Shown: piece after piece, positions 1 through 21,997 of the stretch
Layout: each line of letters begins with the position of its first letter
Numbering within the stretch: the first letter of the stretch is position 1
Origin: a virus
Reading direction: 5' to 3' (one strand)
Virus record (IMG/VR): IMGVR_UViG_3300037069_003744
Span: 1-22,110 of that record
DNA length: 22,110 bases
Position numbers and translations under genes: made by a program
Notes under the pieces: generated by a model
What the model was told of the DNA's origin: nothing
Database searches by the model: none
The model's input: only the letters and a program-made list of their open reading frames with translations

Positions 1-537
1 ACTGAGCCTGCGGAGGAGATGCACGTCACCCTGGTGTATCTTGGCACCGTCCGAGAGTTTCCCGATGGCCCCTCTGTACTCAAGGAGAAGGTTCGACGGT
101 TTGCGGAACGCGCAAAGCCGGTTAGCGGTTATTACAGCGGTTCTGCAATCTTCCACGCTGGCGATGACTCTGACGGGGTTGAACCCGTGGTCGCCCTGCT
201 CGATGTCCCCCACCTTGCCGAGCTACGAACCGGCCTGGTCCAATGGTTGGAGAGAGACGGGCTGTCAATATCATGGCTGCACGACTTTACCGCTCATACC
301 ACCCTCTCTTATTCAGAGGGAAAGGCCAAGAGACTGCCACGGGTTCCCCACATGGCTGTCACATTTGGGACAATGCTCCTGTACTTCGGAGGCGATATCT
401 ACCCTTTTCCCCTAAAGGGTGATAGCTACTTCCCCGAGCAGGAACTGCTCAAGAATCTCCCTCCCATACCAACTCTGCGTTCACCCCTGGTCTTTGCATT
501 AAAGAATGGCTACAATAACGCGCATCCGGGCCGATAA
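1..537 (+). CDS. 2H phosphoesterase / 2'-5' RNA ligase-like protein, 5' partial
   Basis: The 2H superfamily acts on 2'-5' or cyclic phosphodiester bonds of RNA and nucleotides, using two H-x-T motifs. Both are visible: HVT followed by LVYLG at the very start, and HTT followed by LSYSEG about 91 residues later, the normal spacing. The first internal ATG (19) lies one codon before the first HxT. The family needs an N-terminal strand and helix before that motif, and the frame is open to base 1 (reading TEPAEE before the Met), so the gene probably begins outside the window. It may be the C-terminal domain of a larger head protein, as in some phages where this domain lies next to portal or minor head genes. 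Its 3' end overlaps the next gene by 32 bases. The substrate is unknown; anti-CBASS Acb1 proteins are also 2H enzymes, but nothing here proves that role. Confidence 0.75.
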   Translation, partial: TEPAEEMHVTLVYLGTVREFPDGPSVLKEKVRRFAERAKPVSGYYSGSAIFHAGDDSDGVEPVVALLDVPHLAELRTGLVQWLERDGLSISWLHDFTAHTTLSYSEGKAKRLPRVPHMAVTFGTMLLYFGGDIYPFPLKGDSYFPEQELLKNLPPIPTLRSPLVFALKNGYNNAHPGR

Positions 538-4031: not shown

Positions 4032-4919
4032 GTGAAAGCCTACCAGCGCCTGGGTGCCGAGCGCGAGCCGGAGACGGAGACCTTCTCCCTCTGGATACCC
4101 CTCGTTAAGTCCTCGACGGAGACGGACGAAGAGGGTAAGTTGGTGCGCTTCGTTGAGGGGCTCGCCTCGTCGGAGCATAAGGACCAGCAGGGCGAGACGA
4201 TTCTTCAGCGCGGCATTGACTATGACCCGCTGATGCGCGGCGGCTATATCAACTGGGACCACGAGCGCGGCCCCGACAATATCATCGGCGAACCCTCAGA
4301 GGCCGGTCTGCACGAGACGAAGCGCGGTTGGGGTCTCTTCTTCAAGGGATTCCTCTACGAGGGCCATAAGCGCGCCGAGGCGGCCTGGGACCTCCTCAAA
4401 GCTCAGGAGCGGGCGCAGCAGCAGGGTCACGGACACAGGACACTCGGTTGGAGCGTTGAGGGCGGCGTTGTCGGCCGCGCCACGCGCGACCAGTCCATCA
4501 TTGCCAAGTCTGTCGTGCGTTTCATGGCGCTCACCCATCAGCCCGTGAACGCCGAGTCCTATACAGAGATTTCCAAGAGTTTTGGCCGTATCTGGACGCA
4601 GAATGACACATTTGACCCACGTTCTAACGTGCATCATGCGTTTAATGACATAGACGCCCTCACAAAAGCCTTTGGTGCGGTAGGTTCTGAACAGACCCTT
4701 TACAAAACCGCTTATGCGGGTGAGGGTATGGGCGGCTCGTCCATGAGTTCCATCATGGATAACGTGATTGGCGCGATGGGTAGGGGCTGTAAGGGTTCCT
4801 GCTCTGACGAAAAACTTGGTCGTCGTAAGGCACTCCGTCACTTTGTTGAATGTAACGGTGGTGATGTCGATGATTCTTACAACGCTATCAAAGAAATGTA
4901 TGATTTCCTCATGCAGTAA
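4032..4919 (+). CDS. Prohead (capsid maturation) serine protease
   Basis: It cleaves scaffold and capsid precursors inside the immature head. The HK97/T4-type prohead protease fold is supported by a typical N-terminal half: SLWIPLVKSS, then FVEGLASSEHKDQQGE, then INWDHERGPDNIIGE with the likely catalytic His77, and LGWSVEGGVVGR with the likely nucleophile Ser141. VVRFMALTHQPVN closes the domain near residue 174. It lies directly before scaffold-like and capsid genes, the standard order. The start is GTG at 4032 (MKAYQRLGAE), with no strong ribosome site. The last ~110 residues, beyond the protease domain, form an unusual tail that contains CKGSC and a helical end (RKALRHFVECNGG); its bases look richer in A/T than the rest. 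The tail may be a scaffold-binding or self-cleaved segment. Confidence 0.85.
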   Translation: MKAYQRLGAEREPETETFSLWIPLVKSSTETDEEGKLVRFVEGLASSEHKDQQGETILQRGIDYDPLMRGGYINWDHERGPDNIIGEPSEAGLHETKRGWGLFFKGFLYEGHKRAEAAWDLLKAQERAQQQGHGHRTLGWSVEGGVVGRATRDQSIIAKSVVRFMALTHQPVNAESYTEISKSFGRIWTQNDTFDPRSNVHHAFNDIDALTKAFGAVGSEQTLYKTAYAGEGMGGSSMSSIMDNVIGAMGRGCKGSCSDEKLGRRKALRHFVECNGGDVDDSYNAIKEMYDFLMQ

Positions 4920-4946
4920 CGCCCCTTCTGAAGGATATCTAGGATA

Positions 4947-6266
4947 ATGGCAAAGCGAACGATGCGCGAGGCTCTCAACGCGATTGAAGAGGCGTCTCCG
5001 CTCAATTCTCTGGCGAAAGCCAACAAGAACCTCACTGATATGCTGGCAAAGGGCGGCAACTTCCTGTCTGACGGCCCCGTTAGCACGAAGGCAGACCAGT
5101 CACAAGATTTTATGGGCGGAGGCGATAAGATGAAGTTGGCCGAAGACGAGCGCGCTGGCGAAGACGAAGACGAAGATGGGGAAGAGGGCGCTGAAGGTCG
5201 CATCAAGCGCTCCACCAATAAGGGTAAGAACCCGAAAGACCCCGGTGGTGCTTCGCCGGGTGATAGTCCCGCCATGCTTCGTAGCGCTGCTTCGCAGTTG
5301 CGTGACCTTCAGAAGGGTCGCATGAAGAAAGCTTTCCCACCGTCGCAAGATGATGATGATGACAGCGATTCGGACGGCGGGCCCGCAGATAGTGATGATG
5401 GTAGCGACGGTGACCCCTCGATGGCCCCCGGTGGTGCGCCTCCGCCCGCCGCGATGCCCCCGCAGGGCGACCCCAACGCCATGGGGCCCGGCGACCCCTC
5501 GCAGAACCCCCAGGCCCAGGCGATTATCCAGGCACTCCAGCAGGACCCCTCGCTGATTGAGGTCCTCATTAACTATATCGAACAAAATATGGCCCCTGAC
5601 CAATCGCAGCAGCAGCCCGGTATGCCCCCTCCGGCAGCCCCGGCTGGTCCTCCGGCTGGCGCTCCGCCCCCACAGATGATGCGCTCTATGAATGACCACC
5701 AGAATGACCTCACGCAGCGCCTAGCCAAATCTGATGGCGCGAACGAACTGATTCAGGCCGTGGAGGCGTCCCCCGCAATGGAGGCGCTGACCAGCCAGAT
5801 GATTCAGTACGAGGCGCAGTCTCGCGCCCAGTTCGACCAGATGAGCCAGTTGCTGCGCTCCCTCGCCGCTGAGAATCAGGGGCTGAAGAAGAGCCTCAAT
5901 GGCCTCCTGGGCGGCGTTGCTACCCTGCTTGAATCGCAGGCGTCGATGCAGAAGAGCCTCGGTGCCGCCGAGCTTGCTCCGATGCAGAAGAGCAACGTTG
6001 TCAATGCCATCCCCTCGCAGCAGCCCTTTAATCCGGGCGTGCAGTGGACGGCACCGGGCCAGCAGCAGGCCGGTCTGAACAAGTCCCGCAACGTTGACCT
6101 CAATATCAACGCCCTCCAGAAGTCGCTCGAAGAGCACGCTCAGAAGGGCGATAAGCAGGCCGCAGTCCTGATGGGTGGCATTTCCAGTGACCCCCATCGT
6201 GTTGCTCAGCTTGTCTCGCAGGATATCTGGGATACCTACGAGAAGCTTGCCCCCAGCTTTCACTAA
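4947..6266 (+). CDS. Scaffold/internal head core-like protein, acidic and low-complexity
   Basis: This 439-residue protein is assigned as scaffold from position (between prohead protease and major capsid gene) and composition. A short N-terminal helix (MREALNAIEEASPLNSLAKA) is followed by two acidic runs (EDEDEDGEEGAE near residue 75; DDDDDSDSDGG near 136) and a long Pro/Gly/Gln/Met-rich region (~150-245). The C-terminal ~190 residues are helical, with coiled-coil potential (LTSQMIQYEAQSRAQFDQM, LLRSLAAENQGLKKSL). Short K-S motifs recur (KKSL, MQKSL, MQKS, LNKS, LQKSL) and could be cleavage or binding sites, but this is speculation. AAGGA lies 11 bases before the ATG and a second AGGA two bases before it. 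Confidence 0.7.
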   Translation: MAKRTMREALNAIEEASPLNSLAKANKNLTDMLAKGGNFLSDGPVSTKADQSQDFMGGGDKMKLAEDERAGEDEDEDGEEGAEGRIKRSTNKGKNPKDPGGASPGDSPAMLRSAASQLRDLQKGRMKKAFPPSQDDDDDSDSDGGPADSDDGSDGDPSMAPGGAPPPAAMPPQGDPNAMGPGDPSQNPQAQAIIQALQQDPSLIEVLINYIEQNMAPDQSQQQPGMPPPAAPAGPPAGAPPPQMMRSMNDHQNDLTQRLAKSDGANELIQAVEASPAMEALTSQMIQYEAQSRAQFDQMSQLLRSLAAENQGLKKSLNGLLGGVATLLESQASMQKSLGAAELAPMQKSNVVNAIPSQQPFNPGVQWTAPGQQQAGLNKSRNVDLNINALQKSLEEHAQKGDKQAAVLMGGISSDPHRVAQLVSQDIWDTYEKLAPSFH

Positions 6267-9326: not shown

Positions 9327-11324
9327 ATGCCAATTACTTTTAAGGGCAACCAGCTTATCCAGCCCCAGGCTGCCGTCTTCGTTGACGATAGCGGCCTATC
9401 GGGGCAGACCCTCAATGGCTCGGGCGACCTCATCCTCGTCGGGCCAGCACAGGGCGGCGCTCCCAATGTACCCCTTTATTTCGTCACGCCGAACGACGCG
9501 AAAATTGCTCTGCGTGGTGGCAACGGTATGCGCGCCATTCAGCGCGCCTTTCAGCCGGGTCCCGAGGCCGTTGGCGCTCCCCGCGTCGCCTTCATTCGCG
9601 CTGGCTCGGCGTCGCAGTCAACCGTCACCCTGACCGACTCGAACTCCAACCCCTCGCTCGTGCTCACGTCTCAAGACTATGGCTCCTGGAACAACCTCAT
9701 TCGCGTGAACGTCTCCGCAGGTTCGACGGTGGGGCGGAAGGTTCAGGTCCAGTACGGCACCACGACCGCCGTTCTCGATAACGTGCAGCGACCGTCCTTC
9801 TCCTTCACTTATTCGGGCGCATCGACCACGCTCTCTTATGGCGTTGGCGCGCTCTCCACGAACGTGAACAACGCGACGACGACCAGCGCCTCCTCCATCG
9901 CGACGGCCACCTCGTTGACGGTTACGCTGGGCAGTGTGCTCCAGAGCGGTGGTATTGTCACCCCCTTCAAGGTATTGGTCGGCTATCCCGGCTCCGCCGC
10001 CGCCGAGGTCGTCACGGTAACCGCCGTCGCCACCAACACGCTCACCGTCTCCGCACTCGCCAACGCTCATGCATCGGGCGAGCCCGTCATCCTCTATACG
10101 GGTGAGCAGGGCATGTCCTTCTATGCGGCCACGGCGGGCGTCGTGAACGCGGCGGACAGCTTCCAGCTTCCCTTCTCGCTCTACACCACGATTCAGGACA
10201 TGGTGAACTACATCGCCGCCCATACACACTATGCGGCAACGATGCTCTCGCCCCTGCCCACGGACCCCTCCTCCTCTCTCGATGGCCTTCCTTCGGGGAC
10301 CAACGGCCTTACGGGGCCCGTCACCGTGAACAGCAACCTCTATGGTGTCATGCTGGCGCTGAACTCCGGCCAGCAGAGCTATGTGACGGCCACGCTGGCG
10401 ACGAACGCTACACAGCCCCCCGCCATCTCCGGCTCATCGAACACCTGGACCTACCTTGCCGGTGGCTCGGACGGCTCCATTGTTCCCACCTCGACCGATT
10501 GGACCAATGCGCTTCAGGCGGCAACGGCCATCGATTGCTCGGTGATTGCGGTGGCGACGGGAGATGCGACCATTCACGCCATGCTCCAGGCGCACGTTGA
10601 CTTCATGTCCACCATGCAGCAGGCGCGTGAGCGCGTTGCTATCGTGGGCGGCGTGGCCGGTGAGACGACGACGCAGGCTATCGCCAGGGCGAACAACCTG
10701 CGTGACCCGCGCTTTGGCCTCGTGTATCCCGGTATCGTGGACACCGATATCACGCTCTCAAGCTCCGCCCCCGTCACGCTTGACCCGTGGTTGGTCGCCG
10801 CACAGTTGGGTGGTATGTTCTGCGGCCTTGGCATCCGCGAGGCGTTGACGAACAAGTATATCTCCGCCAGCGGACTTGAGGTCTTCCTCTCGCAGAGTGA
10901 CCAGCAGACGCTGCTGCTCTCCGGTATTATTCCTCTCGTCTATCAGGTGAACAAGGGTTACCGTGTTCTCCACAGCATTAGCACTTGGACCGCCGATACT
11001 AACTTCCGCCGCAACGAACTCTCCACGATGCGCAGTTCCGACTTCCTCGTGAAGACGGTGCGTACCGCCGCTAACTCGTTGATTGGTCAGATTGTTGACC
11101 CTCAGCTTCTCAGTCGTGTGAAGAGCGTCGTGAGTTCCTCGCTTCAGGGACTCTGGGACAACGGTGTTATCGTTGGTGACGCCTTTAACCCCGCATATCG
11201 CAAGGTTGCGGTGAGCGGTGCCGGTGATACGGTGAACGTGCAATTCGAGGTGTCCATCGCTATTCCGGCGAACTATATCCTTATTACGGCGAGCTTGCAG
11301 CCCTACGTTGGAACGGCCGCCTAA
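9327..11324 (+). CDS. Contractile tail sheath protein
   Basis: The sheath surrounds the tail tube and contracts to drive it into the cell. The 665-residue product has the family pattern: an N-terminal beta region (LIQPQAAVFVDDSGLSGQ), a Gly-rich fold with GDLILVGPAQGG, an LTSQDYGSWNNLIRVNVSAG segment, and a C-terminal core with helices and the contractile lock region (AIARANNLRDPRFGLVYPG, LVAAQLGGMFCGLG, TSTWT-like then FRRNELSTMRS). Residues ~170-262 look like an inserted beta domain, Thr/Ser/Ala-rich (TATSLTVTLGSVLQSGG), of the kind seen in larger sheath proteins. It ends tail to tail with a - strand gene, overlapping by 3-4 bases. Placement before the tube gene is standard apart from that insertion. 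Confidence 0.9.
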   Translation: MPITFKGNQLIQPQAAVFVDDSGLSGQTLNGSGDLILVGPAQGGAPNVPLYFVTPNDAKIALRGGNGMRAIQRAFQPGPEAVGAPRVAFIRAGSASQSTVTLTDSNSNPSLVLTSQDYGSWNNLIRVNVSAGSTVGRKVQVQYGTTTAVLDNVQRPSFSFTYSGASTTLSYGVGALSTNVNNATTTSASSIATATSLTVTLGSVLQSGGIVTPFKVLVGYPGSAAAEVVTVTAVATNTLTVSALANAHASGEPVILYTGEQGMSFYAATAGVVNAADSFQLPFSLYTTIQDMVNYIAAHTHYAATMLSPLPTDPSSSLDGLPSGTNGLTGPVTVNSNLYGVMLALNSGQQSYVTATLATNATQPPAISGSSNTWTYLAGGSDGSIVPTSTDWTNALQAATAIDCSVIAVATGDATIHAMLQAHVDFMSTMQQARERVAIVGGVAGETTTQAIARANNLRDPRFGLVYPGIVDTDITLSSSAPVTLDPWLVAAQLGGMFCGLGIREALTNKYISASGLEVFLSQSDQQTLLLSGIIPLVYQVNKGYRVLHSISTWTADTNFRRNELSTMRSSDFLVKTVRTAANSLIGQIVDPQLLSRVKSVVSSSLQGLWDNGVIVGDAFNPAYRKVAVSGAGDTVNVQFEVSIAIPANYILITASLQPYVGTAA

Positions 11325-12013
11325 CGTTTGCGCTTCCCCGCGAGCGCCTCATCCATCGTCCAACCACGGCGGAGGCGCGCTCGCAGGGTAACGTACTTAA
11401 TACCCCGTTCACGGGCAACATCGGTTAAGCTCCGCTCCTTGCCCGTTTCCGCATCGAGAACACTGTAGGAGACCTGTAGACGCTTCGAGCACTTGGGGCA
11501 GCCACGCGAGACGCCGGAGATGAGATTTCCCGCCAGAACATCGCTCGTAACGCCACAGCGACAGAGACAGTGCCAGCGCGTCGGCTCCTGGTTCTGAACG
11601 AGACTGAGGAGTGTCCACTCACCAATGACATCGCCAGCGCTCAGAATCTTGCCCAAGCAACGTTGACAGGGTGGATTGTGCCGAAGGGAACTAATGCGAT
11701 AGCGGGCCTCGTGGCCAGATTCACAGCGCACCAGATGGCGACGGTCATCGTCAAGGGCGAAGTTGGGCTTCACAACCTCCCAACGCCCAAAGCGCTGTCC
11801 CCTCAGAACGGCGGTGCCGATTGTTAGACCAGACTTAGACTCGGGCGTCAGCGCCTCCTCTCGGGACCAGCCCCGCCGCAGGCGCGCATAGACCGTCTCT
11901 CTCTTTAGCCCCGACACCTGTGATAGCACCTCGGCATCGGCCCAGCTATTTCCCCAATTCTTCACAGCAATACCCCCATTAGAATCTCTTGATTCTCCAC
12001 TACTCGTGTACAT
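11321..12013 (-). CDS. Antisense DNA-binding-type protein: HTH, two Zn modules, HTH (homing-endonuclease-associated type)
   Basis: This 230-residue protein is encoded against the structural genes, between sheath and tube. Residues ~24-56 and ~193-226 are duplicate helix-turn-helix-like blocks: each has V/L-x-x-V/A, a turn, then RLRRGW-x-x-(D/E)EAL. That pattern is known from DNA-binding modules next to phage HNH/homing nucleases. Between them are two copies of a GxxxGxW-x-x-V/L type module with Zn ligands: Cys97, Cys116 and Cys119 (His101 possible) in the first, and Cys149, Cys151, Cys153, Cys172 and Cys175 in the second. No H-N-H, GIY-YIG or LAGLIDADG motif is visible. The ATG at 12013 has no ribosome site. 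A GTG at 11965 (residue 17) with GGGGGT six bases upstream is an alternative, and keeps both HTH blocks. It may be a degenerate or nuclease-free intruder, or a regulator. Confidence 0.75.
   Translation of the reverse strand: MYTSSGESRDSNGGIAVKNWGNSWADAEVLSQVSGLKRETVYARLRRGWSREEALTPESKSGLTIGTAVLRGQRFGRWEVVKPNFALDDDRRHLVRCESGHEARYRISSLRHNPPCQRCLGKILSAGDVIGEWTLLSLVQNQEPTRWHCLCRCGVTSDVLAGNLISGVSRGCPKCSKRLQVSYSVLDAETGKERSLTDVARERGIKYVTLRARLRRGWTMDEALAGKRKR
11981..11996. repeat. Short inverted repeat at the divergent gene starts (1)
   Basis: AGAATC and GATTCT form a 6-bp perfect inverted repeat with a 4-base spacer. It lies in the first codons of the antisense gene, ~40 bases before the tube gene start, and could be an operator half-pair; chance is also possible. 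Confidence 0.3.
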
Positions 12014-12021
12014 CAGTGTAC
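12008..12021. repeat. Short inverted repeat at the divergent gene starts (2)
   Basis: GTACA, spacer TCAG, TGTAC: a 5-bp repeat that contains the antisense gene's ATG (complement at 12011-12013) and sits 16 bases before the tube ATG. Confidence 0.3.
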
Positions 12022-12022
12022 C

Positions 12023-12026
12023 AGGA
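12023..12026 (+). promoter_or_regulatory. Ribosome binding site of the tail tube gene
   Basis: AGGA lies 10 bases before the ATG at 12037. It falls in the 23-base gap between the divergent starts, so the tube gene keeps its own ribosome site next to the antisense gene. Confidence 0.5.
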
Positions 12027-12036
12027 ATAGACTAAA

Positions 12037-12624
12037 ATGCCAACCGCACCAACGACCAGTAACACCGGAGCCACCGGGACGCCCTCGGGCGGTGGCGTTC
12101 GTCAGAATCAGATTGCCATCTCGGGCAATATCGTCAGCATCTACTTCGGCGGCGTGCTGGTCGGCTATCTCGATGAGTTCAGCAGCCAGGAGGATTTTGG
12201 CCTTCAGCCGCTGGTGGGCATCGGTGATGGTCGCCCCCAGGAATGGGTGCCCGGTATGTACAATGCCACGCTCACCGCAACCCGTGGTGTCATCATGGGA
12301 CCGTCACTTTTCACCCTGTTAAATGGCGGGGCACAGAATGGCGGTGGTGGCGATGGCGGTCCCGCCTTCGGTAATATGGCAGCCGCGCTCAAGGGCTACG
12401 TCTTCGATGTGACCGAACAGCAGAAGGGACAGTCGGGGCAGACACTGAAGGTTTTCCGCAACTGCTCCTTTAGCTCCGTCTCCTGCTCCGTGCGCGCCAA
12501 CGCCATCCTGATGATGAATATCACGATGCGCTGCCTGGATGCGACGGCCGGTGGTGATGGCGACTTCAGCGGTACCGGCGCGCAGTACGCCTCGGGTAAC
12601 ATGGACAATGCCAGCGGTACGTAG
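12037..12624 (+). CDS. Tail tube protein
   Basis: This 195-residue protein is expected to stack as hexamers inside the sheath and to carry DNA through. The N-terminal ~25 residues are Thr/Gly/Ser-rich and probably flexible. The core is beta-rich: QIAISGNIVSIYFGGVLVGY, YNATLTATRGVIMG, a Gly-rich loop (GGGGDGGPAFG), YVFDVTEQQ, then LKVFRNCSFSSVSCSVRAN and ILMMNITMRCLD. Size, strand content and place between sheath and chaperone genes fit the tube family; the order sheath, tube, chaperones, tape measure is the standard one. The TAG stop lies inside a 26-bp perfect palindrome, and a strong terminator follows, as expected for an abundant virion protein. Confidence 0.8.
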   Translation: MPTAPTTSNTGATGTPSGGGVRQNQIAISGNIVSIYFGGVLVGYLDEFSSQEDFGLQPLVGIGDGRPQEWVPGMYNATLTATRGVIMGPSLFTLLNGGAQNGGGGDGGPAFGNMAAALKGYVFDVTEQQKGQSGQTLKVFRNCSFSSVSCSVRANAILMMNITMRCLDATAGGDGDFSGTGAQYASGNMDNASGT

Positions 12625-16400: not shown

Positions 16401-16828
16401 TTAAGAAGTATCCCAAGTTGGATACTGGTTATGATAGCGCTGGCGCAAATACCGCCGCTGCCGGTCAGGCAACAACGGCAAACGGAGCAGCAACTCCTGC
16501 TGCATCTACTAGCCCGAGTCCCGACTACACGGGCAAACAAGCTCATGACGCCTGGTTAGCTGCGCATCCCGGTGATTACTCCGGTGCTAATGCTGCGGGC
16601 ACGAACGCGGCGGCGGCTGCTGGTCCAGCACCTAAGGGGTGGAGCGCACCGCCCGGAGCCTCTCTGCTTCAACGTTCGCAGGGTAATTCCGGTAGCGCCT
16701 TAAACGTGGTCGTTAACGGAAAGGTTACGGTTGACCTGGGGTCCCTGGGTTCGTATGACCTTCCGGTGCAGGGCGCTGGACAGGCCAACGACGCCTCTCA
16801 GGTCCAACCAGTCGCCTCGAACTATTAA
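13454..16828 (+). CDS. Tail tape measure protein
   Basis: It sets tail length and is ejected through the tube. At 1124 residues it is the longest gene here and follows the chaperone pair directly. The N-terminal ~400 residues are helical, Gln/Ser/Ala-rich (QAQVDASSIDAAATRWERAA; LNKFKEQLLTVTRAYGVNYQ). The middle (~505-690) is hydrophobic and Gly-rich (GGALYGGLKLGGKVLSGLG; GGAAIGGMLGAPLFGIG), a typical membrane-insertion segment of tape measures. Later (around residue 828) YYEIGGS followed by NPFQFS resembles the E-x-GG...N/Q pattern of lytic transglycosylases, but this is weak. A long Ala/Thr/Ser/Pro-rich part follows, with a second small helical segment (LDEVIVMAAESGMTLEQFQA). The ribosome site is modest (AGGT close to the ATG). 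Confidence 0.85.
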   Translation: MSDTTQVKIQAQVDASSIDAAATRWERAARAIGGAFGAVGGGGQNPNAEWNPRTGQYHDRDTGQFVSQPQSNWRRAAQYGSNFASSAAKQMGFVGVGGMAAGDIYGARQSIAQGSQIEALSKSFGNTADQLNKFKEQLLTVTRAYGVNYQELTKFTDALKAGGGSGLTQAQASRNAASIFSLQNSGLYSMQAGYGLQTSLLQGGGGANMNVINAQVAASLRTSGSSMAGRGDELVSSVQSLVDTLQQQGGATGNIDQQFGQFASMLGTMGASGVPGLMGAKGANLLSTMGQSDQSGIGFAQMLSGMAQRGAAPRSYADMLQARQNSGSPQGLMDAINGMNLPANASDEQIRQAMAISQQNLPVATDVSLYKAIKQSGNDPAQQKMVQAIMGITDTSKQGNALDLMTGQGDQSSQLKTMLKQTGMSDNQINKLVNGPMTGSQAANVYAQNINNSTTASGDVGKYQDAQRSVEGVITGFVQAGDNLVSSIQKVAETVQGIQGLQSGPLKWANQSGALPALAQVGMFGGALYGGLKLGGKVLSGLGNLFGGGGGAVAGGGGALPEFDSVTGAATGATDAAASVAGGAGADAAAGGLMAGFGGTAIAGGAGLVLGGLDIASNLKNGNKGGAATDAGFMAGGAAIGGMLGAPLFGIGAVPGAMIGGGIGAGVGWIANNTSLFDGIGGLFGGGKKKAPTSGAAGKQAAPDNTPLGSTAAYGVSNMQAQSLSVQSLSLAGMDLSSYYHSAIAVSWPDSQMTVLAQRIAQYEKAAGVGGGSNGGGSNGAGGSFNTPGAATGQAQKDIIAWANANAKKLGADPAKLAQMELGLNYYEIGGSDKNPFQFSNDLAAQYGTNGSVGSQLDILAGMGRVGDAYQAYVAAGGGAAGLQKAENIQEIPDLNVEAQRGGLGGFNSSVSFANTAYTANSTPAAASPAATPAAASAAASTNSTVTWPLDEVIVMAAESGMTLEQFQALTPDEKRAIHDKLLKKYPKLDTGYDSAGANTAAAGQATTANGAATPAASTSPSPDYTGKQAHDAWLAAHPGDYSGANAAGTNAAAAAGPAPKGWSAPPGASLLQRSQGNSGSALNVVVNGKVTVDLGSLGSYDLPVQGAGQANDASQVQPVASNY

Positions 16829-17144
16829 CCGGGCCGAACATTTTCCCTACACCGTTTTCGCAAATTGCACAGAGAAGCTGGTCCCAGACGTTACTGAGGA
16901 CCAGCTTATTTGTCATCTCCTTGCAACAGGGACAGCGAAAGACGGGGTTGTAGCCGTAGTACATATCGCAGCAGTGAATACAGAGAGTGTGACTATCAAC
17001 GCAATGAGGGTCGTAGTCACCACCACACTTATCGCAGGAGAGAGGGGTCGTCAAAGAGAGTTTCCCAGTGGCTTCCCTGGTCGGATACCCCGATTTTTCC
17101 CTCTCCCTTGTGGGGTCCTCGGCAGAGCGGGCAGATTCGTCCAT
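16725..17144 (-). CDS. Cys-rich Zn-binding protein, overlapping both neighbours
   Basis: This is a 139-residue protein. The first ~36 residues are charged and probably disordered (frame overlaps the GNAT gene). A dense Cys/His region follows: Cys37 and Cys40, Cys48, Cys55, Cys58 and Cys59, Cys71, Cys73 and Cys74, Cys92 and Cys95. The pairs C-x2-C at 37/40, 55/58 and 92/95 and the C-x-CC at 71-74 look like two Zn-binding folds. Eleven Cys in such order in one open frame is unlikely by chance, and no other frame covers 16829-17028. AAGGA at 17153-17157 lies eight bases before the ATG. The last ~35 residues are antisense to the tape measure end. No family was recognised. Confidence 0.6.
   Translation of the reverse strand: MDESARSAEDPTREREKSGYPTREATGKLSLTTPLSCDKCGGDYDPHCVDSHTLCIHCCDMYYGYNPVFRCPCCKEMTNKLVLSNVWDQLLCAICENGVGKMFGPVNSSRRLVGPERRRWPVQRPAPEGHTNPGTPGQP
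16875..16907. terminator. Possible terminator hairpin between convergent genes
   Basis: A perfect 10-bp stem (AAGCTGGTCC at 16875-16884; complement at 16898-16907) has a 13-base loop that can extend the stem by CAG/CTG with a bulged A. It lies 47 bases after the tape measure stop and is followed by ATTTGTC, a poor U-tract. It is also inside the Cys-rich - strand gene, so it may be coding chance or a weak terminator. Confidence 0.45.
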
Positions 17145-18018
17145 CGGCTGAATCCTTCATCGAGCGCGTGAGCGCGTCGGGAATCTTGGGCTGGTGGGGA
17201 ATCTTCGCCTTCTGGGCGCGATATGCCTCACCGCGTTGAAAGGAGGGGTCTTCGGGCTTGAGGCTCATCGCTCCGTGCCAGCCGTTCTCGGGACCATCGA
17301 CACCATAGGTATTGAGCAGAAAGGACTTGCCAATGTGCCCTAGCTGGTTCGTCTTTCCCATCGTATTGTAGGGAATACGATGGCCCGTGTCGAAGCGGGC
17401 AATATCACCGACGCTCTGAAGCCCCATCGCCACCTTGTGGTGTTCGGGGCTTATTTTTCCCCTCTTCGCCAAGCCCGTCACGTGTCCCTGCCAGCGCGAG
17501 AGCATCTGCGACTTCTCATCGGGGTCAGAGGGCTCAAAGCCATGCAGGGCCCAGGCATAGGGCCCAACATCAACGTTGGCATGGAGTGAGATGCGGTCGA
17601 TGCCCATTTGCTGGTACTGCGGAATCATATGCTGCAACCAGGCGGACCCGGCACCCTGGTCCTGGACGTGTGACATCATCTGCTGTGACTCATGGTGCGC
17701 CTCGGGGCCACCGTGGTCGCCCACGCGGATGTCCCGCCAGAAGCTGCCCACGGGTTCGCCGTTCTGGTGAATCGTTCCACCGACACCTATTTTGGGGCGC
17801 GTGAGGTCGGGCTTGTGAGGCGGCCCCTCATGACCAAAATGTACCTGACCCGTCTTATAGCTAATGCCGCTCTCGGGGTGGGTGAAGTCGTACATCTTCG
17901 CCACCGTTCGCGGGTCGGCTATGCCAAAATGCCTGGCGGCATCAGCTTTACCCTGCGGTGTTGCGGTGTATTGCAGCCCCCCAACCTTTTGGATGACCGC
18001 ACCGTTTGCCATTGTCAT
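17029..18018 (-). CDS. GNAT acetyltransferase-like protein in baseplate operon
   Basis: This is a 329-residue protein. Residues ~100-165 carry a GNAT-like core: the helix with Q119-x-x-G122-x-G124 (the family's acetyl-CoA phosphate-binding pattern Q/R-x-x-G-x-G/A), then WLQHMIPQYQQMGIDRISLH with A147-N-V-D and G152-P-Y-A-W-A-L-H-G-F, the closing strand and helix. This version, with a GYAWA-type end, is known in proteins linked to phage or polymorphic-toxin contexts. The first ~95 residues are unusual (Gly/His-rich, FTHPESGISYKTGQVHFGHE). After ~165 comes a long unrecognised tail ending in a C296-P-L-C299 pair. It starts with an ATGA overlap with the gene before it. The substrate is unknown; it may modify virion or host proteins, or be a non-catalytic copy. 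Confidence 0.65.
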   Translation of the reverse strand: MTMANGAVIQKVGGLQYTATPQGKADAARHFGIADPRTVAKMYDFTHPESGISYKTGQVHFGHEGPPHKPDLTRPKIGVGGTIHQNGEPVGSFWRDIRVGDHGGPEAHHESQQMMSHVQDQGAGSAWLQHMIPQYQQMGIDRISLHANVDVGPYAWALHGFEPSDPDEKSQMLSRWQGHVTGLAKRGKISPEHHKVAMGLQSVGDIARFDTGHRIPYNTMGKTNQLGHIGKSFLLNTYGVDGPENGWHGAMSLKPEDPSFQRGEAYRAQKAKIPHQPKIPDALTRSMKDSADGRICPLCRGPHKGEGKIGVSDQGSHWETLFDDPSLLR

Positions 18019-18281
18019 GCCGCGTTCCTCATGGAGATACCGTTCTCTTTGAGAATAGACTCAATCTCATCGTAACGTCGGGGCAGAAAGCGCACCAGGG
18101 GTTCAACGGGAACGCCCCTGCTCACCCAGAGGAACTCCACACCCCTGATTCCCCTCTCGCAGTAGTCCACGTTTATCTCATCACTAATGCTTCGTGTTTT
18201 CGTAATCTCATCATCCATGAAGGTGATATAGGCGGCATCGGCCTCGGCATCGTGAGAAAAGGTCGTGGCGAACTCCTCTAT
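18015..18281 (-). CDS. DUF2283-like small protein, apparent ATA start
   Basis: The conserved DUF2283 shape (D-x-E-A-D-A-x-Y-I, then a short loop and INVDY-x-x-x-G-x-x-G-V-E) is visible as FSHDAEADAAYITF and INVDYCERGIRGVEFLW. The first methionine in frame (18218) would remove most of the first strand. The frame is open upstream through the end of the preceding gene, with no ATG, GTG or TTG. Reading from ATA at 18279-18281, which overlaps the TAA of the spike gene as TAATA, gives an 88-residue protein with the whole motif. Three other genes here use TAATG overlaps. It ends in an ATGA overlap with the GNAT gene. Function of the family is unknown; an assembly factor or small virion accessory is possible. 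Confidence 0.6.
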   Translation of the reverse strand: MEEFATTFSHDAEADAAYITFMDDEITKTRSISDEINVDYCERGIRGVEFLWVSRGVPVEPLVRFLPRRYDEIESILKENGISMRNAA

Positions 18282-19951
18282 TAAGGGACCGTGACGGCGG
18301 TTCCGTTGATGAAGACCCCATTGGGGGCGGTGATGTTCACCGTTCCCGCCTGGGAGTCGAGAATAATGCTGGTCGTGTGAGCGCCCATGACCTCAAGCAC
18401 GATGGTTGCATCGTGGGCGGCATCGGAGGTGACGCTGACGGTGTAGTTAGCGTTGTCCTGGCTGCCCGCCAATGTCCAGGATGCATCCGCGTGACCCTGT
18501 GTGGGCAGCAGCGTTGCCGACCAGTTGACGTGTCCGTGCGCCGTCGTTTGCACCAGCGTCCAGTTGCAGTCTGAGGTTATCTCATTATCAATGGGCGGCT
18601 GCTTATTCACGAGATTCCAGGTGAAGGCCATCGGCCCATCCTTCAACGAGTCGAAGGGTCGCGCCCAGAGAAAGTTAACGTTCGCCCCACGTAGGTAATT
18701 ATCCTGCTTCGTGCCGCGCCAGATTTTATCCGTGCCCACCTGGGACTTGAAGTCGGGATTAAGAACAGCCTCGTCCCACAATGTGCCGGGGTCCACGCCG
18801 CCCAGCCCCGTATTCCAGCCCACATCGTAATCGCCAATTTTGAGGTCCAGCCCCTCCACGAAGGTCTGCGTCACCTGACGCCTCACGCCGATGTTCCAGT
18901 CGCGCTGCACCATGAGCGAGGCCGAGCCCGTCGCCTTCGCCTTCTTCAGCGACTCGTCACGGGCCAGACCATCGGGCACCTTGCCGTCGTGGCGGGGGCG
19001 CATCCGCACCCACTCAAACTTATCGCGATGCCAGCCCTGGTAGCCCAACCGGCTCCAGATGGTCATATCACCCTCGGCCACATCCTTATCGTTAAAGTGG
19101 GTGGAGTCGAAGTCACGACCCTCCGCACGGAGGGTGATATTGCCGTTGTTGTCTATCTGGAAGCGCGAGCGCCAGCGCTGATTGAGCGTGAACCCGCGCG
19201 CGTAGTCCCTCTGTGCCTTCTTCAGGTCGCCCATCTGCGCCAGGGAGAGTTGGAAGGGGTGTTTGTCCTTATCAAAGTTACTGTTGGTGAAGACGCGCGG
19301 TAGGTCGCGGTAGCCCCAGACCATATAGGACTGGTAGTCATCGCCATTATCCATCCCACCATCGGGCGGCACGTCTTGATAGCGGTCGGGGAAGGATAGC
19401 TGCCAGTTGCCATTGAGCACTTCGAGCGGATGTTTCGGGTCAACGGGTCCCTGACCAAACGGCGGTGGACGCACATCGTTGTGGTTGTCCGTCCAGGTGA
19501 CGTTGAGGATATCGTGAATATCCCGCTTCAGCGCCATGTTCGGCTCTTTGAAGCTGTTCTGGTGGGAGTTAGGGGCGGTCATACCCAGAACGAAGGGTTT
19601 GTTCTGATAGCCATTGGCAAAGCCGACAATCGCATAGCTGTCATGCGCGTGGGTGGGGTCACCCTCATCGTAAAGCTTGCGCAAACCCCCGCTTAAACCC
19701 GCCTGCGGTTCCACGAAGGCGTCCTTGCCGTTGTAGACCTGTGGCAGTCCGTTCTGACCCGCCTGTGTACCGCCCGAGTCGCTGAGCATCGTCGCGCCGC
19801 GCACGATATAGCCATCAATCGTCGCCACATCCACCGTATTGTGCTCGGCGTTGGTGTCGATGATGCGACCCACGAGAATGGAGTTCTGCGAGCGCTGCGG
19901 CGTTGTGCCGACCTGACGAATCTTATGGGCTAGGCCCGTCTGCATACGCAT
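18281..19951 (-). CDS. Baseplate spike/puncturing protein (gpV/gp5-like)
   Basis: This is a 556-residue protein. The N-terminal OB-fold-like region (ILVGRIIDTNAEHNTVDVAT then GYIVRGATML; ~25-60, continuing with SYAIVGFANGYQNKPFVLG) is the pattern of the baseplate spike family. A long middle part rich in aromatic residues and Asp/Arg (WQLSFPDRYQDVPPDGG, SRLGYQGWHRDKFEWV) follows. The last ~110 residues are beta-rich repeats like a beta-helix tip (ATIVLEVMGAHTTSIILDS, VNITAPNGVFINGTAVTVP). It would cap the tube and pierce the cell surface together with the hub protein. The start ATG lies six bases after the hub stop; a second ATG is two codons later. The end overlaps the DUF2283-like gene as TAATA. 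Confidence 0.8.
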   Translation of the reverse strand: MRMQTGLAHKIRQVGTTPQRSQNSILVGRIIDTNAEHNTVDVATIDGYIVRGATMLSDSGGTQAGQNGLPQVYNGKDAFVEPQAGLSGGLRKLYDEGDPTHAHDSYAIVGFANGYQNKPFVLGMTAPNSHQNSFKEPNMALKRDIHDILNVTWTDNHNDVRPPPFGQGPVDPKHPLEVLNGNWQLSFPDRYQDVPPDGGMDNGDDYQSYMVWGYRDLPRVFTNSNFDKDKHPFQLSLAQMGDLKKAQRDYARGFTLNQRWRSRFQIDNNGNITLRAEGRDFDSTHFNDKDVAEGDMTIWSRLGYQGWHRDKFEWVRMRPRHDGKVPDGLARDESLKKAKATGSASLMVQRDWNIGVRRQVTQTFVEGLDLKIGDYDVGWNTGLGGVDPGTLWDEAVLNPDFKSQVGTDKIWRGTKQDNYLRGANVNFLWARPFDSLKDGPMAFTWNLVNKQPPIDNEITSDCNWTLVQTTAHGHVNWSATLLPTQGHADASWTLAGSQDNANYTVSVTSDAAHDATIVLEVMGAHTTSIILDSQAGTVNITAPNGVFINGTAVTVP

Positions 19952-19957
19952 GAATTG

Positions 19958-21997
19958 CTACTTACTAAAACAAGATGATATATCAACTGAGTTGCCGTTC
20001 GCATCGTATACGGCGAGATGGAGGTGTGGACCCGTTGATGTTGGTCCACTTGGCGTATTAATAAATGTGTTATCGGAAAGACCAATCTGTTGACCAGCAC
20101 TAACGGTCGTACCAACGGCCACCATGCCACTCGGGTCCATATGCCCATAGCGCACCGTGGAACCGTTGGCAAGCTGAATGACGACGTATGAGCCAATTCC
20201 CGGCTCAACGCCGCCCGTTCCCGCATGGATGACGGTTCCCGCGCCCACGGCATAGAGCGGTGTTCCCGAGTGCGCGGCAAAGTCGATACCCTCATGAAAA
20301 TGAACACCATTGTGGATGGGTTCCGCCGCCTCGCTCGTGGGGCCATATCCCTGTGTAATAGCCGGTGTGGCGTTGGGACCAAAGGGAGAGTGGTCCATCG
20401 TTGAACAGTTGACCGGCTGTGACGATGGTGAGGTTGATGGATTGCCCGGTGTTGAGGGTGGACCGCCGAAGACGGGTGGTGGTGTGCCCGAACCCACGGC
20501 GAAGGAGTTGAGGCCCAGGTCGGGCTCGGGACCGGCAATCACCTCATAGGGCGACATACCATCGGGGTATTGTCCTCGGGTTACCGTCAGTGAGGTGGTG
20601 AAGGAGATGGTGTTGAGCCCTATCTGAAAGTCGTGGTCCACACCCTCGATGTAGAAGGTAATCTTGGCGTCCTCCATGAGCGTGTGACGGCCCACACGAT
20701 AGGCTGGGTCACCAGGAATGGTGATGGTGCCTGACAATTGCAAGTAGTTGCTCTGATAGACATCGTAGAGCCACTTGGAATACTTACGCATCAGCGGCAT
20801 CGCCGCATCTTTATTGCTGTCGTTGGTGGTCTGTGTGCCCGCCAAGGGCTGTGTCGTGCCCATCGGCGAGACGGCCAACTGCCCCTCAAGCTCGGTGAAG
20901 CCGAAGCGGCGCGTGAGCTTCTCATCCCAATAAGCGGCACCACCATTGGTCACGGGCGGAGCATAGGTGTACCACATGGAATCGCCCGTGAAGCCGCCAT
21001 AGGTGGGATAGCAGAGGAAATAGGAGAACTGCTGCGCGTCGCTACGTCCCACATTAATGGAGGCGATATCGCGATTCCTGATATTGGGGGCGTCGGGAAA
21101 AACCATCTGCGCGTCATCGGCGGCAGTTTGATTGTAGATATTGCGATAGGGTGCCCGCCTCCAAACGATGGTGGGGTGTGTTTGCGAGGCATTGATGGAC
21201 TCGTTCGATGACGTGCCAATAACGTCGTCGGTAACGAAGAGTTCAAAGAAGGGGGCGGACTGATAATACTGGAGAGCGTTCCAGACGCTGCCGGTGAAGG
21301 GCGTCTGCCCATCATTGTAGATGAGGTAGTTGGAGTCAAGGGGCGGGTCAACGTTGAGGTTCAACTTGGGGGCACCCGGAGGAATCGACATGATACCCGA
21401 TACCCGTGTTGACCCTGATGAGTCTGTAACACTGCCCTCAACGGCCTTGAGCAGTTCTCTCGCGTAGGTGGCGGGGTGCTCCGTTGAACCAATGGCCATA
21501 CCCATCTCAGCACCAATCGGTATAAGAAACTTGCTCTGTTGGTCACCCGTGATGGGCTCACCCAGGTTTGTGCCGGGTAGCGTCACGAAGAGGGCGCGTA
21601 GGAGCAGCTTCCCGTAGTCCCTGCCCGATATCTCACAGTAAACCTGTGGTGTCCCATCTGATGTTGCCGATACGCTGGTATTGGTTGAGTCAACGAATCC
21701 ACGCATGACGAGCGTCTCACTCTGCGTATCATCGTAATCTTTCGCTACGCGAATCTCAATGTAATCCATTGGCGATAGTAGCTCAGACCACGTTCGTCCC
21801 GTTGAATCTTTGTGTGCTGTTGTACGTATCGTCCACGTACCCGCGACTTCACCGATATCTTTATGCGTGTGGATACTAACAGCATCATCGAGGATATGTG
21901 CTCCATCGGCAGATACTATTTCTTTTGCCGTATCACTGGCGTTAGCAATAGCTGTTATTTGAATACGGGGGTGGTGTTGGTCAACGATGACAGTCAT
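19958..21997 (-). CDS. Baseplate hub protein fused to M23 metallopeptidase (tail lysin)
   Basis: This is a 679-residue protein. The N-terminal ~480 residues look like the baseplate hub (gp27/gpD) family: beta-rich modules near YIEIRVAKDYDDTQ, VYCEISGRDYGKLLLR, and LNTISFTTSLTVTRGQ. A Pro/Ser-rich linker (~498-525) joins it to a C-terminal M23 (LytM) peptidase domain. The zinc ligands are visible: His568 and Asp572 in HEGIDF, and H658-L-H660 in GPHLHLAV, with YGHM (His619) and the IGLSDNTF turn in their normal order. M23 enzymes cut peptide bridges of peptidoglycan, so the hub probably opens a path through the cell wall. It is the first gene seen of the - strand operon. GAGGAGA (22012-22018) lies 14 bases before the ATG, a long spacing. 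Confidence 0.85.
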   Translation of the reverse strand: MTVIVDQHHPRIQITAIANASDTAKEIVSADGAHILDDAVSIHTHKDIGEVAGTWTIRTTAHKDSTGRTWSELLSPMDYIEIRVAKDYDDTQSETLVMRGFVDSTNTSVSATSDGTPQVYCEISGRDYGKLLLRALFVTLPGTNLGEPITGDQQSKFLIPIGAEMGMAIGSTEHPATYARELLKAVEGSVTDSSGSTRVSGIMSIPPGAPKLNLNVDPPLDSNYLIYNDGQTPFTGSVWNALQYYQSAPFFELFVTDDVIGTSSNESINASQTHPTIVWRRAPYRNIYNQTAADDAQMVFPDAPNIRNRDIASINVGRSDAQQFSYFLCYPTYGGFTGDSMWYTYAPPVTNGGAAYWDEKLTRRFGFTELEGQLAVSPMGTTQPLAGTQTTNDSNKDAAMPLMRKYSKWLYDVYQSNYLQLSGTITIPGDPAYRVGRHTLMEDAKITFYIEGVDHDFQIGLNTISFTTSLTVTRGQYPDGMSPYEVIAGPEPDLGLNSFAVGSGTPPPVFGGPPSTPGNPSTSPSSQPVNCSTMDHSPFGPNATPAITQGYGPTSEAAEPIHNGVHFHEGIDFAAHSGTPLYAVGAGTVIHAGTGGVEPGIGSYVVIQLANGSTVRYGHMDPSGMVAVGTTVSAGQQIGLSDNTFINTPSGPTSTGPHLHLAVYDANGNSVDISSCFSK

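Follow-up and report, generated by a model that had tools for sequence, protein, structure and literature searches.

The minus-strand gene that separates the tail sheath and tail tube genes of the window (a complete IMG/VR record of 22,110 bases) encodes a protein composed of four modules in the order HTH-Zn-Zn-HTH, and no nuclease motif is visible in it. We consider, with moderate confidence, that this gene is a moron-like free-standing cassette with a Zn-HNH-HTH homing endonuclease as its ancestor, of which the beads were kept and duplicated and the core was lost, and that it was inserted antisense and probably acts by occupying DNA. It would thus be a variant on a known kind of gene, distinguished by the loss of the core and by an HTH on both sides; the other nuclease-free arrays of the phage group were newly found here.

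The sheath/tube junction

The sheath gene (9327-11324, +) was identified by its matches to Pfam PF04984 (E 9.8e-10) and phrog_279 (E 2.5e-62), and the tube gene (12037-12624, +) by phrog_985 (E 7.4e-16) and alignment with annotated major tail proteins; both identities are further backed by alignments in which five cultured phages with annotated genes are 28-36% identical. The array gene is an open frame of 230 codons (11321-12013, -), which fills the space exactly between the two, as the preliminary description had claimed. The overlap of 3-4 bases with the sheath stop reported there amounts to four bases common to both convergent frames (11321-11324), with the sheath TAA at 11322-11324 and the array TAG at 11321-11323, and the tube does keep its own ribosome site, AGGAA (12023-12027), inside the 23-base spacer before its ATG.

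A survey of 85 sheath-bearing loci, representing 59 lineages at 90% identity, revealed a median sheath/tube gap of 14 bp. The gap is 23 bp or less in 46 of the 59 lineages and 91-184 bp in nine, and it exceeds 300 bp only in the window (712 bp), in L092 (1023 bp) and in the group of L050, L061 and L070 (some 4.5-5 kb; two clusters in the count). Universal presence of the array gene at this place among the relatives was looked for and did not occur; the gene is missing from the junction in all 58 other lineages. Removal of 11325-12013 would restore a normal gap of 23 bp, which matches the short gaps of the relatives. The cargo of L092 (7713-8746) comprises a pair of antisense ORFs, of which one has an Lcl_C domain, and that of L070 (7710-12240) comprises LPD1 polyvalent protein genes and an antisense DUF29 gene; both are unrelated to the window gene. 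The short gaps in most lineages, along with unrelated cargo in others, show the junction to tolerate cargo and the window gene to be a derived insertion. L050, L061 and L070 were not retained as three independent insertions, since most of their cargo is ~99% identical.

The third-position GC of the array gene (0.63) is lower than that of the sheath and tube genes and equal to that of the tape measure and hub genes; composition is hence uninformative, and foreign origin on this ground was rejected. A promoter-like site, TTGGCA-17-(TGg)TACACT (12015-12043, -), lies just upstream of the array gene. It is the sole such match on either strand between 9000 and 13000, where shuffled sequences give 1.4 per region, and is suggestive by its position only. 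If real, it would start transcription just downstream of the ATG at 12013, so this ATG may not be the true start and the GTG at 11963-11965 (-), which retains all four modules, would be used instead. No terminator-like site was found downstream of the gene. The 5' leader contains a perfect inverted repeat, AGAATC-N4-GATTCT (11981-11996), unique in the window with up to two mismatches, which is a candidate operator or leader hairpin; neither the repeat nor the hairpin is beyond chance, and both were dropped as significant signals.

Several other features of the window were recorded. Residues about 170-290 of the sheath (9327-11324) comprise roughly 100 extra residues in the alignment with the five cultured relatives. 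At its 3' end the tape-measure gene overlaps a cysteine-rich ORF of 139 aa (16725-17144, -; CDKC, CPCC, CAIC), for which no family match was obtained. The minus strand at 16829-21997 holds putative hub/baseplate and lysin genes; in the cultured relatives almost every gene beyond the tape measure runs in the direction of the sheath, and the window lineage thus displays a strand switch. At the head-gene end, 19-537 (+) resembles a 2'-5' RNA ligase/LigT-like phosphoesterase (PF13563, E 1.3e-4, below the curated cut-off), and its product could be an anti-defence cyclic-nucleotide phosphodiesterase.

Modules of the array protein and the missing core

The HTH-Zn-Zn-HTH plan was examined with profile models into which no window sequence went, and each of the four modules outscores the best of 200 shuffles (3.2 bits for HTH and 9.7 bits for Zn). 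HTH1 (residues 24-55, ARLRRGWSREEAL; 11849-11944, -) scores 34.6 bits and is predicted as a unit of three helices by the two structure models alike. Zn module 1 (residues 70-119, GQRFG...; 11657-11806, -) scores 19.1 bits over residues 70-111, the weakest of the four, and forms a beta hairpin and helix in the predicted structure; its ligands, C97-x3-H101 and C116-x2-C119, are non-standard as compared to CxC and CxxC. Zn module 2 (residues 127-175, WHCLCRCG...CPKC; 11489-11635, -) and HTH2 (residues 191-225, ARLRRGWTMDEAL; 11339-11443, -) score 32.9 and 48.1 bits, respectively. The AF2 model built with an alignment (mean pLDDT 69.9) displays four separate beads, HTH and Zn alone; that built without one is poor (pLDDT 43.7). 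The ARLRRGW motif is identical in HTH1 and HTH2 at the protein level, with four synonymous third-position differences in 21 bases. This conservation reflects selection since the common origin of the two HTHs, and not necessarily since the loss of the core.

The preliminary description had likened these modules to those of phage homing nucleases, and the comparison bears this out, as both the Zn modules and the C-terminal HTH of the phrog_374/phrog_3377-type Zn-HNH-HTH endonucleases are present. The full plan of that family is one or more Zn modules, a core (YGGRGI...DR.D..G.Y.P.NCRW) and at least one RLRRGW-type HTH. These endonucleases, like the window gene, stand free between phage genes, and they have the same Zn modules (GQRFG..WxCxCDCG..C..C) and the same C-terminal HTH in the same order; they possess the core, whereas the window protein lacks it and carries an extra HTH at its N-terminus. 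Among PHROGs, the array protein matches the HNH endonuclease families phrog_374 and phrog_3377, and also phrog_1065, over Zn or HTH stretches only. The match of its HTH module to phrog_1065, which holds PVL ORF-50-like HTH proteins (PF07768), has an E value of 2.1e-10 and covers only ~40 residues (profile positions 53-92 of 192), and the window protein has no PF07768 match.

When 13 relatives (12 with the core and one nuclease-free) were aligned to the window protein, it was found to pass from the CPKC of Zn module 2 almost straight into HTH2, through a linker of residues 176-190 (11444-11488, -). The ~80-residue YGGRGI HNH core, which the relatives carry between Zn and HTH, is absent, as also evident from the score of the core model (-3.8 bits, under the best of 200 shuffles), and no frameshifted nuclease remnant was found in six frames of the junction. 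Descent of the gene from a homing gene whose nuclease was lost is the best supported account of these sequence features. The earlier suggestion of a selfish element without its nuclease is therefore upheld as regards origin, since the Zn/HTH framework lacks exactly the core and 58 of 58 other lineages lack the gene at this junction.

Searches of Pfam, NCBIfam, PADLOC and PDB sequences with the array protein returned nothing above cut-off. The PDB fold search with the better AF2 model gave noise and no fold match, while the viral fold search gave low TM-scores, for the most part to phage proteins of no characterised function and to homing endonucleases. No close relative turned up when viral collections, genome collections and plasmids were scanned with the single protein.

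Related arrays and selection

The module alignment was searched against 36 whole relatives of the myophage group, some of them incomplete records, and matches were obtained in 12, the remaining 24 being without one. Clear nuclease-bearing forms with these modules occur in five genomes: G001 (core and two HTH), G002 and G003 (three Zn and HNH), G005 (four Zn and HNH) and G028 (two Zn and HNH). G012 has a GIY-YIG-like protein with the same HTH at its end. Nuclease-free forms are found in G008 (antisense, Zn-Zn-HTH, 195-200 aa), G016 (three Zn, plus a 240-aa HTH..HTH protein), G018 (a homologue of that HTH..HTH protein) and G001 (two Zn), and G011 has a possibly nuclease-free array of one Zn (106 aa). 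Where G005 has its four-Zn gene (L023, 3578-4777, -; endonuclease-VII-like/HNH), L024 and L026, which are ~95% identical to L023, have a spacer of 23 bp, a clear case of an occupied and an empty site. This shows that homing genes with these modules are gained and lost within the group.

The array gene of G008 (L155, G008:C1:63500-73500; 4732-5319, -) lies directly upstream of the capsid maturation protease gene. It is convergent with the preceding gene, the 3' end of which it overlaps, and ends at the protease leader; the same site measures only 59-132 bp in five cultured relatives. The Zn2-HTH2 stretch of the window protein finds a match in its product (28%, E 5e-8). The two genes have the same antisense arrangement at different structural junctions.

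Zn modules that pass directly into HTH, as in the window protein, were also found in the nuclease-free 150-aa protein of Xanthomonas phage PhiXhv-15, in L101/L013 and in L151/L155 (G008). These arrays have a single or double Zn and one HTH, and none was found with an HTH on both sides. In the viral-collection survey only one in 16 distinct proteins with Zn and HTH was of the nuclease-free type. The PhiXhv-15 protein (L007, 2968-3420) is annotated 'HNH endonuclease'; it consists of Zn-HTH only, with no nuclease, and judged by its sequence the label is a misannotation, common to other records.

Two further arrangements were noted. In Vibrio phage 277E43-1 (L010, 1958-3174) and Alteromonas phage V22 (L012, 2000-3350), homing genes stand in tandem and overlap or abut, a Zn-HNH-HTH gene being followed by a second HNH gene of phrog_1985. 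Nuclease-free tandem arrays of HTH only occur in other viral contigs (L104, 4746-5531; L105/L119/L130; L111, 6523-7260), with matches to the NUMOD1/I-TevI DNA-binding domain or weak ones to PVL_ORF50.

Selection was estimated on three pairs of the other nuclease-free arrays, two outside the phage group and one inside. The values of dN and dS were 0.074 and 0.656 for L013/L101, 0.018 and 0.068 for the PhiXhv-15/-12 alleles (13 differences only) and 0.114 and 0.988 for G018/G016. The resulting dN/dS of 0.11-0.26 denotes purifying selection, which indicates that at least some nuclease-free arrays are maintained proteins. Together with the antisense array of G008 at a structural-gene junction, this renders more plausible, on comparative sequence grounds, the earlier proposal of a regulator taken into the tail operon.

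Origin, mode of action and significance

According to the favoured reading, a homing endonuclease ancestor would have lost its nuclease core, while its DNA-recognition beads were retained and duplicated to HTH-Zn-Zn-HTH, and the cassette would have been inserted antisense into a sheath/tube spacer of 14-23 bp. Its product would be an intact sequence-specific DNA-binding protein, made from its own minus-strand promoter, and is probably dispensable for tail building. By occupying DNA it may repress its own or neighbouring promoters; alternatively, it may cover a homing site and thereby keep cognate endonucleases from cutting. Autorepression, local repression or homing-site protection is thus the likely mode, by analogy with known systems. 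In T4, the late promoter of I-TevI is repressed by I-TevI itself through an operator (PMC2988022). CapR of the V. cholerae PLE satellites, a Zn-finger protein related to the DNA-binding domains of homing endonucleases, represses ICP1 capsid expression (PMC10448857). Like the window protein it is nuclease-free and homing-related, a likeness of architecture alone, and its action on phage structural-gene expression offers an analogy for a gene placed among structural genes. However, CapR is kin to T5orf172 nucleases, has a CxxC...CxC Zn signature and is satellite-encoded, whereas the window array is encoded by the phage itself. Morons and other late-operon cargo are likewise lineage-specific, lie between late genes and may have their own promoter, but the promoter match of the window is weak and no adjoining terminator was found.

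Counted against the homing-derived cassette are the lack of a close homologue in our searches, the promoter and inverted repeat that fall within chance, the divergent ligands and lowest score of Zn module 1, and the abundance of truncated homing genes that are remnants in decay, which in skunaviruses number 56 of 268 (PMC12724721). This abundance, the divergent Zn module 1 and the lack of close relatives showing conservation of the gene would equally suit an inert remnant, in which the nuclease was recently lost by deletion and the gene drifts, its frame merely still unbroken. We regard this as unlikely, though deserving of weight, as the 230-codon frame is intact and retains the two HTH motifs and the ligands of Zn2, simple loss of the core does not explain the added N-terminal HTH, and the other nuclease-free arrays are under purifying selection in pairs both outside and inside the group.

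Homing in trans, in which the array gene would stay mobile because another locus of this phage supplies a nuclease that cuts empty sheath/tube junctions, appears improbable. The process is documented, the defunct I-TevIII intron of T4 being mobilised by MobE (PMC2988022); other genomes of the group have nuclease-bearing module genes, and L010 and L012 pair a Zn/HTH homing gene with an adjoining second HNH gene. On the other hand, no nuclease gene was found within the 22-kb window, nor were near-identical empty and occupied alleles of its junction. That the Zn/HTH beads hold a catalytic centre of unrecognised kind, which would make the protein a true endonuclease, is very improbable, even though unexpected nuclease types occur in homing genes, as F-CphI illustrates (PMC6083498). 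A nuclease of unknown type, as had been envisaged, is disfavoured, since beyond the disordered N-terminus the protein comprises recognised modules and short linkers, leaving no room outside them, and profile and fold searches for a hidden nuclease (Pfam, PHROGs outside Zn/HTH, PDB sequence and fold) found none. A conserved required regulator of tail-gene expression, to which the sheath-tube position and the DNA-binding modules might point, is largely refuted by distribution and hardly credible, as the junction is without the gene in 58 of 59 lineages and no such array occurs anywhere in 24 of the 36 whole records, some of them incomplete.

More tentatively, domestication could have turned the recurring nuclease-free arrays of these ~90-kb myophages into antisense local repressors or site-protectors at structural-gene junctions, namely sheath/tube and the capsid protease of G008; we regard this as possible and distinctly short of probable. 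If true, such arrays would control late-gene timing or guard essential junctions against the homing endonucleases that co-infecting relatives bring. Should nuclease-free arrays prove functional, phages would hold a pool of swappable DNA-recognition beads that serve as repressors or site-blockers, and a route from selfish gene to regulator would become visible, one that the sheath/tube and protease junctions, with their empty relatives, make directly testable.
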